In this document: positions 5,376 through 9,735 of the stretch, piece after piece
Position numbering within the stretch: the first letter of the stretch is position 1
Layout of the letters: every line of letters starts with the position of its first letter
The notes under the pieces: generated by a model
What the model was told of the DNA's origin: nothing
Database searches by the model: none
Seen by the model: the letters and a program-made list of their open reading frames with translations, nothing else
Position numbers and translations under genes: made by a program
Source: Sulfurimonas sp.
GTDB lineage: Bacteria; Campylobacterota; Campylobacteria; Campylobacterales; Sulfurimonadaceae
Reading direction: 5' to 3'
Assembly (NCBI RefSeq): GCF_026196735.1
Contig: NZ_JAPHUF010000012.1
Span: 248,001-312,000 of the forward strand
Length of the DNA: 64,000 nt

Positions 5376-6257
5376 ATGATTACTTTTAGTGAGATGTTAC
5401 TAAAACTACAAGAATTTTGGATGAAGCAGGGTTGTAATATTGTTCAGCCTTACGATATCCCGGCAGGAGCCGGAACCTTTCATCCTGCTACATTTCTTCG
5501 CTCGTTAGATTCAACTCCATGGGCAACAGCTTATGTTGCACCATCTCGCCGTCCGACTGACGGAAGATATGGAGAAAACCCAAATAGACTAGGCTCATAC
5601 TACCAATTTCAAGCACTTATAAAACCATCACCGGATAATATTCAAGAGCTTTACTTAAAATCTTTGGAGTACTTAGGGCTTGATGTAAGTAAACATGATA
5701 TCCGCTTCGTAGAAGATAACTGGGAATCTCCAACACTTGGTGCCTGGGGTCTTGGCTGGGAAGTTTGGTTAAACGGCATGGAAGTTACTCAGTTTACTTA
5801 CTTTCAGCAAGTCGGAGGCATCGAGTGTAATCCTGTAGCTGTTGAGATTACTTACGGAACTGAGAGACTTGCTATGTATCTTCAGGGTGTAGATAATGTT
5901 TTTGATATCGTTTGGAACGAAAACGAGCATGGAAAAACTTACTATAGTGATGTTCATAAAGAGAGCGAAATAGAGTTTTCAAAATACAACTTTGAAGTAG
6001 CAGATACTGACATGTTGTTTGCAGATTTTAACGCAAAAAGCAAAGAGTGCCAAAGAGCTTTAGAAGCGGGACTTCCTTTACCTGCTTATGATTTGTGTAT
6101 GATGGCATCTAGCACATTCAATGTACTTGATGCAAGAAAAGCAATTAGTCAAACTGAGAGACAAAACTACATCCTAAAAATTCGCGAACTCTCAAAAGGG
6201 TGTGCTGAACTTTATAAAGAACAAGAGCCGGAGAGACTTAAAAGGGTTAAGGGGTAA
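5376..6257 (+). CDS. glyQ: Glycine-tRNA ligase alpha subunit
   Basis: A 293-residue GlyQ, the catalytic alpha subunit of the tetrameric bacterial glycyl-tRNA synthetase (EC 6.1.1.14). The class II core is visible: [11 protein letters not shown] and [10 protein letters not shown] near the N-terminus, [14 protein letters not shown] (about 58-71), and the [11 protein letters not shown] and [11 protein letters not shown] stretches of motifs 2 and 3. Length is normal. The beta subunit gene glyS is not next to it and is not in the window, which is common in Campylobacterota. A hairpin terminator overlaps its stop. Confidence 0.97.
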
Positions 6258-6280
6258 AATATTGCATAATGCAATATTTT
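6256..6280 (+). terminator. Terminator after glyQ
   Basis: Two 12-base arms, AAAATATTGCAT and ATGCAATATTTT, surround one central A and run into further Ts. The stem is AT-rich but perfect, begins inside the glyQ stop codon, and separates glyQ from the accessory segment. Confidence 0.65.
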
Positions 6281-6338
6281 TAAGTTATTAAAAAATATTT
6301 TATTAGACTTTCAATGATATAAAATAATAGGAGCTAAA

Positions 6339-7208
6339 ATGACCGTAGCTATCAATCAAACTAATTTTACAAAATATCAACCGTTTGTAAAATGGGTTGG
6401 CGGTAAAAGAGGTCTGCTCTCTCAGATTATTCCGCTTATTCCAAAAGAATTTAATAACTATTTTGAGCCTTTTGTCGGCGGCGGTGCACTCTTTTTTGAA
6501 CTTTACTCACTTGGACTTTTAAAAGATAAAAATGTTTATCTATTTGATATTAATACAGAGCTTATTAATACTTATAATGTTGTAAAAAATAATCCTACAG
6601 AACTTATAAAAAATCTTAAAGAGTTTAAAGCAAAACATTCTAAAGAGTTCTATTATGATGTAAGAGCTTGGGATAGAGAAGAAGGCTTTTCAAAAAGAGG
6701 CGATACTTTAAGAGCAACAAGGTTTATCTATCTCAACAAAACTTGCTTTAACGGACTTTATAGAGTTAATAGCAAAGGTTATTACAATGTACCGATAGGA
6801 AGTTATAAAAACCCAAATATTTGTGATGAACTTGTAATCTATAACGCTAGTGAAGCTCTGCAAAAAGCCACCATTTTAAATGCTTCATACAAAGATGTAA
6901 TTCTACATGTCAAAAAAAATGATTTCGTTTATTTTGATCCTCCATACTATCCACTAACGCCTACATCTAGCTTTACATCATATAGTGAGTTTAATTTTTT
7001 AGATAAAGAGCAGATTGAACTTTTTGAAGTTTTTAAAAAGTTAAATAAAAAAGATGTTTTTGTAGTACACTCAAACTCTGATACAGAGTTTATAAAAAAT
7101 CTATATGGTGAATTTCATATTGAAGAGATACAAGCGAATAGGTTTATCAATAGTAAAAGCAGTGGACGTGGAAAGATAAGTGAAATTTTAGTAAGGAGCT
7201 GTTTATGA
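6339..7208 (+). CDS. DNA adenine methyltransferase (Dam/DpnM type)
   Basis: A 289-residue class-alpha (D12) N6-adenine methyltransferase. KWVGGKRGLL (18-27) is motif X, FVGGG (45-49) the S-adenosylmethionine loop, and DPPY (200-203) the catalytic motif IV. This family methylates GATC and is the usual partner of MboI/DpnII-type nucleases, one of which is encoded two genes on. It overlaps the next gene by 4 bases, giving a tight three-gene restriction-modification operon. A GGAG ribosome site precedes the ATG. GATC specificity is inferred from family and neighbour. Confidence 0.92.
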   Translation: MTVAINQTNFTKYQPFVKWVGGKRGLLSQIIPLIPKEFNNYFEPFVGGGALFFELYSLGLLKDKNVYLFDINTELINTYNVVKNNPTELIKNLKEFKAKHSKEFYYDVRAWDREEGFSKRGDTLRATRFIYLNKTCFNGLYRVNSKGYYNVPIGSYKNPNICDELVIYNASEALQKATILNASYKDVILHVKKNDFVYFDPPYYPLTPTSSFTSYSEFNFLDKEQIELFEVFKKLNKKDVFVVHSNSDTEFIKNLYGEFHIEEIQANRFINSKSSGRGKISEILVRSCL

Positions 7209-7762
7209 TAAAAAATGGGATAGGCGGAACTAATACAAAGACCGGAATACTATTTGAAAAAAAAATTGAATTAGCAACTCGTTTAAATAAATTAAATGGG
7301 TATAAATGTGTTGAAGTTAAATATAAAAATATAATGAGTAAAAGCTATAAAATCTATTTTGAAAAAGAATTGGTTGCACAAACATTTCAAAAACATGCAT
7401 TGTATGCTTTTTTAGAAGAGCGAAAAATTGATTGGAAAAAAATATTATCAAAAAAACTTTTACCTGATGACACAATATATGTCATTAAAGATAATACAAT
7501 TTATATTTTAGAAATGAAATTTCAAGAAGTTGATGGTTCAGTTGATGAAAAACTGCAAACATGTGATTTTAAAAAGAAACAATATAAAAAACTTTTTTCT
7601 CAACTTAATTATGAAGTTGAGTATATTTATATATTATCAAATTACTATAAAGCAGTAAAATATAAAGATGTTTTAGATTATATAGTTTCTGTAAATTGTT
7701 CTTATTATTTTGAATATTTGCCATTACATAAAATAGGACTACCGGTACCTAATGAAAAATAA
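7205..7762 (+). CDS. PD-(D/E)XK-like protein between the methylase and the DpnII-type nuclease
   Basis: A 185-residue protein with no confident named function. Residues 88-105 (LPDDT then ILEMKFQ) give an acidic pair followed by E103-x-K105, the order expected of a PD-(D/E)XK nuclease core. The later stretch GSVDEKLQTCDFKKKQYKKL (111-130) resembles the helix after the core in such proteins. The alternatives are a degenerate nuclease, a specificity or accessory subunit, or a second endonuclease sharing the same methylase. It overlaps the methylase gene by 4 bases and the next gene by 11, so all three are translated together. It is clearly not a DpnA-type methylase. Confidence 0.62.
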   Translation: MIKNGIGGTNTKTGILFEKKIELATRLNKLNGYKCVEVKYKNIMSKSYKIYFEKELVAQTFQKHALYAFLEERKIDWKKILSKKLLPDDTIYVIKDNTIYILEMKFQEVDGSVDEKLQTCDFKKKQYKKLFSQLNYEVEYIYILSNYYKAVKYKDVLDYIVSVNCSYYFEYLPLHKIGLPVPNEK

Positions 7763-8642
7763 AAACTTTGAAAACTTAAAAAATACACTCCAAGACTCTA
7801 TTTTCACATGGGATTATTTTACAGACTTTGAAAAAGTAAAAAAGAATGTCAAAAAGATAGAAAAAGAGTTAAATCTTCTTAACTATCTCATTGGAAAAGA
7901 GAACCTTGAAAAGGAGTTTTTAACTTTAGTTGAAGAGTATCCAAAAGTCAGAAGAATACTTCCGATACTGATTGCTATTAGAGATGATAAACTATCATGT
8001 ACTCCAGTTATAACCGATATAGAAACCTTAGTGCCTGAAAATAAAAAATATATTTTCTATGATCCAATTGATGAAAATATAAAAAAAGAGTTACTCCTAT
8101 TTTTTAAAGAGAGTGGACTTAGAGATATTTTTGAAAGCAAAGCTATTAAAAATTTAGTTGATTACTGCTTTGGTGTTGAAGTTGGTTTTGACACAAATGC
8201 GAGAAAAAATAGAACTGGCGATATTATGGAAAAGCTTGTATCTAAGTTTTTGGAAGAGTTTTGTGAAGAAAATAGTAATTTTAAGTTTATAGAGCAAGCA
8301 ACACAAAAAAGAATAAAAGAAGTTTTTAATTACGATATAAAAATTGATAAAAATAGTAGAAGGTTTGATTTTGCTTTGTTGGATGAGATAAAAAATAAGC
8401 TTTTTTTGATTGAGGTAAACTACTATAGCGGTGGTGGTTCTAAGCTAAAAGCTACGGCAGGAGAATATCAATATTTAAATGATTTTGTTAAATCTCAAAA
8501 TATTAATTTCATCTGGATAACAGATGGCAAAGGTTGGCTTACATCGCTTAAACCTTTAGAGGAAACTTTTATTCATAATGATTATGTAATAAATTTAGAG
8601 ATGCTAAAAAATGACATATTGAAAGAAATATGCAATAAATAA
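7752..8642 (+). CDS. DpnII/MboI-type restriction endonuclease
   Basis: A 296-residue type II endonuclease of the DpnII/MboI family, which cleaves unmethylated GATC. The family signature GVEVGFDTNARKNRTGDIME spans residues 141-160. The PD-(D/E)XK core follows as D206 (RRFDFALLD) and E221-V-N223, the family replacing the usual lysine by asparagine. Length matches DpnII (288). It is preceded by its methylase and the nuclease-like gene with overlapping frames. GATC specificity is inferred from homology. Confidence 0.9.
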   Translation: MKNKNFENLKNTLQDSIFTWDYFTDFEKVKKNVKKIEKELNLLNYLIGKENLEKEFLTLVEEYPKVRRILPILIAIRDDKLSCTPVITDIETLVPENKKYIFYDPIDENIKKELLLFFKESGLRDIFESKAIKNLVDYCFGVEVGFDTNARKNRTGDIMEKLVSKFLEEFCEENSNFKFIEQATQKRIKEVFNYDIKIDKNSRRFDFALLDEIKNKLFLIEVNYYSGGGSKLKATAGEYQYLNDFVKSQNINFIWITDGKGWLTSLKPLEETFIHNDYVINLEMLKNDILKEICNK

Positions 8643-8726: not shown

Positions 8727-8999
8727 ATGAAAATAACTAATTTTAAATCACTTTATATACTTGATGTTGATGTTTTAGAAGATGATAAGCAAGATAATTT
8801 AATTATGTGTGGTTCACAAAATTGGGAACACTATTTTTCAGTAGATTTCAAAGAAGCAAATGTTGAAACTTTTTCAAATGTGAATATTATAGAGTTTCAA
8901 AATAACAATGACTTTGAAACTTTCGTAAAATTAAATCAAATTATTGATTACTCATTTGAGCATGATAATCTAATGGTATTAGTTTATGGCAAAGATTAA
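8727..8999 (+). CDS. Small hypothetical protein before the second methyltransferase
   Basis: A 90-residue acidic protein that I do not recognise; no membrane segment, signal or known motif. It has its own upstream region (TTGACT at 8679 and TATACA at 8700, about 15 bases apart) and a good GTAAGGATG ribosome site. Its last 14 bases overlap the start of the DNA methyltransferase gene, so the pair is cotranscribed and probably coupled. It could be a partner or controller of that methyltransferase, but nothing in the sequence proves this. Confidence 0.6.
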   Translation: MKITNFKSLYILDVDVLEDDKQDNLIMCGSQNWEHYFSVDFKEANVETFSNVNIIEFQNNNDFETFVKLNQIIDYSFEHDNLMVLVYGKD

Positions 9000-9735
9000 A
9001 AAACTTCATCCTGAAGAGTTTGAACAAGAGTGCACGACAGTTTGGAGTTTTAGGCGTCGTGGAAATTGGGCAACGCATAATTCAAAATACAGAGGAAATT
9101 GGGCTCCAGAAGTAGTTAGAAATTCACTTTTGAGATACTCTAAAGAAAAAGATTGTGTGCTTGACCCGATGATTGGTGGTGGAACTACTGCAATAGAATG
9201 TAAGCTTTTAAATCGCCATCTTTTGGCATTAGATATAAATCCAGATGCTGTTGAACTCACAAAAACAGCATTAAATTTTGAGTGCGAATATAACCCTAAA
9301 ATTAGAGTTGAACTTAACGATGCAAGAGATTTGTCAATACTAAAGGATGAAAGTATTGATTTTATTTTAAACCATCCACCCTATGCAGATATTATAAAAT
9401 ACAGCGAAAAACAAATTGAGCAAGATCTCTCAAATATTCATGACTTAGAAAAATTTTGTGATGAGATGGAAAAAGTGGCATATGAACTTTACAGAGTTTT
9501 AAAAAAAGATAAATATTGTGCTATTTTGATGGGAGATACAAGAAGAAATAAAATGTATCAACCATTAGCATTTATGGTCATGCAAAGATTTTTAAAAGTC
9601 GGTTTTGAACTAAAAGAAGATATTGTCAAACATCAACATAACTGTAAAGCTACCGGTTTTTGGGTAAACAAAAGCAAAGAAGCAAATTTTCTACTTATAA
9701 TGCATGAACATTTGTTCATATTTAAAAAGATATAA
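8986..9735 (+). CDS. DNA methyltransferase, N4/N6 family
   Basis: A 249-residue DNA methyltransferase. The SAM loop LDPMIGGGTT (59-68) comes before the catalytic motif NHPPYA (129-134), with an upstream block RGNWATHNSKYRGNWAP (25-41) typical of a group of N4-cytosine/N6-adenine enzymes. The motif order I then IV differs from the beta class, where IV comes first. The C-terminal third (about 185-249) may recognise the target. Target sequence and base are unknown. No matching endonuclease is adjacent, so it may be an orphan or work with the 90-residue protein upstream. Confidence 0.82.
   Translation: MAKIKKLHPEEFEQECTTVWSFRRRGNWATHNSKYRGNWAPEVVRNSLLRYSKEKDCVLDPMIGGGTTAIECKLLNRHLLALDINPDAVELTKTALNFECEYNPKIRVELNDARDLSILKDESIDFILNHPPYADIIKYSEKQIEQDLSNIHDLEKFCDEMEKVAYELYRVLKKDKYCAILMGDTRRNKMYQPLAFMVMQRFLKVGFELKEDIVKHQHNCKATGFWVNKSKEANFLLIMHEHLFIFKKI

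Follow-up and report, generated by a model that had tools for sequence, protein, structure and literature searches.

The operon analysed here lies on the + strand of a 64-kb stretch of DNA, called the window in what follows, by which we mean that stretch at its full length. Three open reading frames (6339–7208, 7205–7762 and 7752–8642) overlap one another on this strand, as an earlier sequence-only reading of the same DNA had claimed, and the ORF listing confirmed their coordinates. The first encodes a DpnM/Dam-type adenine methylase of 289 aa (PF02086, 1.3e-65; TIGR00571, 4.2e-85), the putative shared protector, whose best solved relative is DpnM (2dpm, 8.8e-75), and the third encodes a DpnII-type restriction endonuclease of 296 aa (PF04556, 2.7e-93; PADLOC REase_II, 4.8e-97) that spans positions 1–277 of the 278 in the PF04556 profile. 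Between them lies the gene of a 185-aa protein, hereafter Mid, a putative PD-(D/E)XK-type nuclease judging by its motif, its relation to PF20472 and its AF2 model, which we propose as a GATC restriction endonuclease. Further 3′, a small ORF of 90 aa (8727–8999, +) overlaps the start of the gene for a second methylase, Mt2 (8986–9735, +), of the N6_N4_Mtase family (PF01555, 7.4e-24; PADLOC type II MTase PDLC03376, 1.4e-90). The overlaps amount to 4 bp (ATGA) between the Dam-type methylase and Mid, 11 bp between Mid and DpnII and 14 bp between the 90-aa ORF and Mt2, and an AAGGAG site precedes Mid; a single transcript is likely, and the genes would then be co-expressed. The gene upstream of the operon (5376–6257) is presumably glyQ, judging by its sequence family.

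The operon has the DpnM-like methylase and the DpnII nuclease of a DpnII-type three-gene system, but not the beta-class DpnA second methylase, as Mt2 is built differently. The sequence-only reading, which had noticed that no second methylase occupies the middle position, was right in that Mid stands there; the locus nevertheless has a second methylase, Mt2, 3′ of DpnII, which that reading had overlooked together with the 90-aa ORF. Within Mt2, our reading of the sequence finds a glycine-rich SAM-type motif preceding an NHPPY motif, an order and a letter that look unusual for the family. The 90-aa ORF, for which Pfam and NCBIfam searches returned no matches, is fast-evolving (26–77% identity in the relatives of the operon) and is retained in many sister operons. 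In L001, whose operon is the closest to that of the window, a frameshift breaks DpnII in two (5548–6428) and Mid is open; the frameshift could be an assembly error in this metagenome bin.

Mid carries the catalytic motif of the PD-(D/E)XK superfamily. In a family alignment of 40 rows including the window copy, P87, D88, E103, K105, Q107, G111, S112, D114, E115 and K116 are invariant; the D...E-x-K pattern from which the sequence-only reading had started is therefore more than chance, since P87, D88, E103, K105 and Q107 are identical in 40 of 40 rows. The window protein matches Pfam PF20472 (PDDEXK_11) at 6.6e-4 with 19.9 bits, under the cut-off of 23.7, and all 41 of the 41 family members match the profile at E ≤ 0.1 (best 6.6e-7), relatives above the cut-off being found at L123 (24.3 bits), L226 (24.0) and L227 (27.1). 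The name of this Pfam family implies no restriction role. The AlphaFold (AF2) model of Mid (pLDDT 85.5) places P-D and E-x-K on one hairpin (strands 90–95 and 98–105), and its top VIA-align matches are BstEII (Z 7.4, 3.9 Å over 135), Bse634I (Z 7.2, 4.4 Å over 142) and BsoBI (Z 7.1, 4.3 Å over 143), followed further down the list by many other PD-(D/E)XK enzymes, every one with Z below 8. In the fold check suggested for this protein, PD-(D/E)XK enzymes thus head the list with Z no higher than 7.4, and a Foldseek search with the model gave no matches at E ≤ 0.001; the predicted structure is in line with the motif but is not decisive for membership of the family. Mid has no profile match at E ≤ 1 to the DpnII family PF04556 or to the MutH families in Pfam; MutH is also absent from the VIA-align list, which alone shows nothing. 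PADLOC and NCBIfam name no family for Mid, searches of solved-structure sequences with Mid or its profile as query gave nothing usable, a PHROGs search gave nothing convincing, and the phage records searched held no match.

Relatives of Mid were drawn from the best 80 of 92 loci in the genome collection, one viral contig, 18 of the 397 class genomes (including one marginal match and several broken genes) and seven records of the plasmid collection. The neighbourhood count comprises 99 loci with a Mid reading frame, around which a methylase was sought within 3.5 kb; the L001 and G448 contigs, very probably the same, form one entry among them. Three loci where no ORF passed the caller (L028, L035 and L119) belong to a separate count of 105 loci, which also adds L213, L226 and L227, while the marginal matches L099 (G167, E 5e-4) and L225/L228 (G481, E 3.6e-4) are in neither. 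The sequence-only reading had regarded homologues lying mostly outside restriction-modification loci as evidence against its proposal, and the survey found the reverse: a DpnM-, DpnA- or Mt2-type methylase lies within 3.5 kb of Mid in 95 of the 99 loci, the pairing of nuclease and methylase seen in type II restriction-modification, and the gap between the two genes is zero or an overlap in 59 loci and at most 50 bp in another 28. The commonest loci consist of one or more methylases and Mid, without DpnII: DpnA-Mid (19 loci), Dam-Mid-Mt2 (15), Dam-DpnA-Mid (13), Dam-Mid (12), DpnA-Dam-Mid (12) and Mid-DpnA (7), plus rarer architectures. Two Lactobacillaceae plasmids carry Dam and Mid with no DpnII annotated. 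DpnII accompanies Mid in 8 of the 99 loci, in at least four different arrangements, and is not found within the examined stretch at the other 91. Of the 397 class genomes, 92 have DpnII, 18 have Mid and four have both; in three of these four, the two genes are adjacent. On the Mid tree, from which L122 and rows outside 150–260 aa were left out, the label 'with DpnII' applies to 9 of 97 rows and needs seven changes; Mid has been joined to DpnII recurrently.

Several of these loci hold further genes. In clostridial and other Mid operons, the genes that separate Dam from Mid encode the PADLOC candidates PDC-S14 or PDC-S18 or an Mrr-type nuclease (one member per cluster scanned), and TIR (PDC-S35) genes lie downstream; PDC, Mrr-type or TIR extras were seen in L019, L052, L075, L077, L078, L110, L057 and L065, with the PDC-S14/PDC-S18/Mrr-type extra of L110 lying after DpnII. 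A PADLOC scan of 58 genes flanking Mid, covering 31 of 34 representative loci (all but L110, L121 and L122) and proteins of up to 900 aa, showed no type II nuclease among the 25 of 116 families listed, and further nucleases may be present. A gonococcal record labelled as a plasmid yet 2.17 Mb long (L122, NZ_CP119140.1, 5981–16467) holds a broken Mid beside a DpnA-type fragment.

Mid is intact in 97 of the 105 loci. A complete methylase accompanies it within the stretch in 94 of these 97, and the remaining three (L024, L039 and L041) are all cut by a contig end. Among the eight loci where Mid was not scored intact (L062 by matched length only), a complete methylase is present in two and absent in six (Fisher p 1.4e-6, uncorrected for kinship). 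Such a pattern, the trace expected from a nuclease that needs its methylase, is a sign of toxicity, although some of these loci may be wholly decayed.

The genus of the window offers the decisive comparison. Among 135 genomes, DpnII occurs in 15 and Mid in six, one of them marginal. The slot between Dam and DpnII in these 15 operons contains Mid in two (G000 and G448), AIPR followed by Mid in one (G399, where the order is inferred across two contigs), AIPR/AbiU in three (G289, G386 and G432), GmrSD in one (G311), a DndB-like protein with a 279-aa partner in one (G477), a protein of a further family, here called the x-family, in three (G455, G472 and G357, the last split over two contigs) and nothing in four (G361, G319, G413 and G451). 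The slot loci with AIPR/AbiU, GmrSD (HEC-06) or the DndB-like pair are L159, L160, L164, L165, L214 and L215. Two further genomes have Dam-Mid without DpnII: in G454 an Mt2 that is 83% identical to that of the window adjoins the pair, and in G442 the pair is followed by a cytosine-methylase gene. One operon therefore exists in three forms within the genus, Dam-DpnII-Mt2, Dam-Mid-Mt2 and Dam-Mid-DpnII-Mt2, the same methylases standing with DpnII alone, with Mid alone or with both; in this genus, Mid and DpnII are exchangeable. The Mid of G399 is only 55% identical to that of the window, whereas identity is 90% for the neighbouring DpnII and 88% for Mt2; in the tree, this Mid falls with those of G442 and G454, which have no DpnII. 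Its divergence beside more similar neighbours, together with the grouping, suggests from sequence comparison that Mid entered the Dam-DpnII slot at least twice in the genus.

The methylases bear on the target of Mid, although only indirectly. The DpnA-type partners are 44–57% identical to the second methylase of the restriction-modification locus of Lactococcus plasmid pSRQ700, which we take to be LlaDCHI with GATC as its target; outliers are L013 (77%, a canonical DpnII operon that also has Mid) and the L122 fragment (60%). These partners resemble CcrM too (197 bits for L025), and we favour GATC over another A-methylation site because the pSRQ700 enzyme is the closer match and because other partners are of DpnM type. 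The window Mt2 is 30% identical to the same pSRQ700 methylase over 42%. It is conserved in the relatives of the operon, at 80–92% identity across the DpnII-operon copies of the genus, and copies 51–60% identical to it come after Mid in other phyla. Across phyla, Mt2 comes after Mid or after DpnII.

Avoidance of GATC provides mixed evidence on the target of Mid, which neither confirms nor excludes this site. These values were obtained from 12–144 kb read per genome, uncorrected for relatedness. In the genus of the window, the observed/expected ratio of GATC is lower in eight DpnII genomes (0.15–0.45; two also with Mid) than in 11 genomes with neither nuclease (0.25–0.95; p = 0.003). The Mid-only genome G442 has the lowest ratio of the 21 genomes (0.08), and G454, also Mid-only, shows little avoidance (0.84). 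In two other genera, the ratios of seven Mid-only genomes (0.49–0.96) were no lower than those of 13 peers with neither gene (0.45–1.01; one-sided p = 0.32). In a further Mid-only genome, G076, GATC is absent from 20 kb in which 39 are expected, and the 10.5 kb surrounding its Mid locus contain three. In the 64 kb of the window, ACGT is seen twice against 59 expected, and the counts of GGCC and GATC are each about a quarter of expectation; GATC avoidance is not specific, since the other two sites are depleted to the same or a greater degree, and the scarcity of all three suggests further restriction pressures.

Mid is probably a family of small (~175–185 aa) PD-(D/E)XK type II restriction endonucleases, which would most likely cut unmethylated GATC and could be exchanged with DpnII; both cleavage and target are what we infer here. 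Mid would perform the job of DpnII through a different protein, one without a sequence-family match to it, and would presumably cut both strands and be sensitive to methylation, so that DpnM-, DpnA- or Mt2-type methylases would hold it in check. In most Mid-bearing genomes, such a system shows no nuclease other than Mid. The window operon would make both nucleases, and the Dam-type methylase, perhaps with Mt2, would block both. Having the two might guard against inhibitors of one enzyme, and so be of benefit against phages that escape one nuclease, or might serve different substrates, such as hemimethylated or single-stranded GATC; alternatively, their coexistence could reflect drift once a gene had inserted at a position where defence genes often arrive.

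The varied contents of the Dam-DpnII slot are also what would be expected if Mid were defence cargo that uses the slot and its promoter as AIPR and GmrSD do, acting on another target or trigger rather than on GATC, and the clostridial operons in which PDC-S14, PDC-S18 or Mrr-type genes separate Dam from Mid point the same way. Indeed, position in the slot is by itself no proof of a restriction role, because AIPR and GmrSD, which are not GATC nucleases, use it as well. However, most Mid loci are composed of methylases and Mid without DpnII, and the only loci with an intact Mid but no complete methylase are those truncated by a contig end, which makes cargo an unlikely explanation. Somewhat less likely still is a MutH-like role, in which Mid would nick DNA or cut hemimethylated GATC, in repair or in finishing restriction. 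Mid is a small single-domain nuclease adjoining Dam-type methylases, and its E-x-K motif is also typical of MutH; against this, no MutH family in Pfam matches it, and it occurs with DpnA-type methylases alone and on small plasmids, unlike a repair gene. The sequence-only reading had proposed a second nuclease sharing one protective methylase, for instance a nicking or modified-DNA enzyme. Its general part is supported, as Mid is nuclease-like by motif and model and sits with methylases that could be shared, but the nicking or modified-DNA role is unsupported, because the relatives mostly stand with methylases and without DpnII, as expected of an ordinary restriction enzyme of a two- or three-gene system. 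We also set aside Mid as a subunit or regulator of DpnII, forming a heterodimer as in two-subunit restriction enzymes: the two genes share a locus in 8 of 99 cases, but each protein is found without the other, Mid in the 91 remaining loci and DpnII in 12 of the 15 operons of the genus, and this arrangement is very improbable.

The x-family comprises proteins of 175–197 aa with conserved RPxxLNKGFDF and WxFIEQDxxYWxxxGR motifs, present in 11 of the 397 genomes of the class. Its members precede DpnII in L168 (4049–4570), L211 (2502–3092), L212 (2789–3346) and G357, and stand alone with Dam, DpnA or Mt2 in L331–L335. Pfam, PADLOC and NCBIfam give no match for them, and a model of the family (pLDDT 71) has no PDB match at Z 5 or more; it is possibly a third GATC nuclease family. 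As a tentative extension, somewhat less likely than not, GATC methylases could be a platform for unrelated nucleases (DpnII, Mid and the x-family), taken up in turn or together, and two-nuclease operons could layer the restriction of one site, in which case a phage that inhibits one enzyme would still face the other.

By kind, Mid would be a type II restriction nuclease, whereas the family, the way it changes places with DpnII and the operon with two nucleases appear to be new: in the open-access literature, which does not extend to REBASE and most subscription papers, we found no description of the Mid family and no paper mentioning PF20472. If our interpretation is right, it reveals a small, widespread restriction-enzyme family missed by current defence annotation, and some GATC methylases at present regarded as orphans may turn out to have a nuclease partner. 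The reasons why bacteria stack several enzymes on one site could then be tested directly in an operon where unrelated nucleases, two in number, share their methylases. In a C. coli methylome study, a dpnA-type gene and GATC methylation are reported and the authors list no GATC nuclease (PMC4687069). General background to the topic is given in a review (PMC4081073).

Among known systems, that of Streptococcus pneumoniae (DpnM, DpnA and DpnB) is similar in its DpnM-like methylase and DpnII-family nuclease; there, DpnM provides protection of double-stranded DNA, whereas DpnII cleaves GATC in double strands that lack methylation (PMC3573125). In contrast, the window operon has Mid in the middle and a downstream Mt2 in place of the beta-class DpnA. 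An Acinetobacter system is different, being BglII-like (PMC10287943). The pSRQ700 locus shares a Dam-type methylase, a second methylase and a DpnII-family nuclease with the window operon, but it has no Mid, and its second methylase, unlike the window Mt2, belongs to the type that accompanies Mid in 57 of the 99 loci. Finally, genes embedded in restriction-modification operons (PADLOC PDC candidates, AIPR/AbiU and GmrSD) resemble Mid in occupying the same methylase-nuclease slot in sister operons, whereas Mid is also the sole nuclease seen in stand-alone loci.
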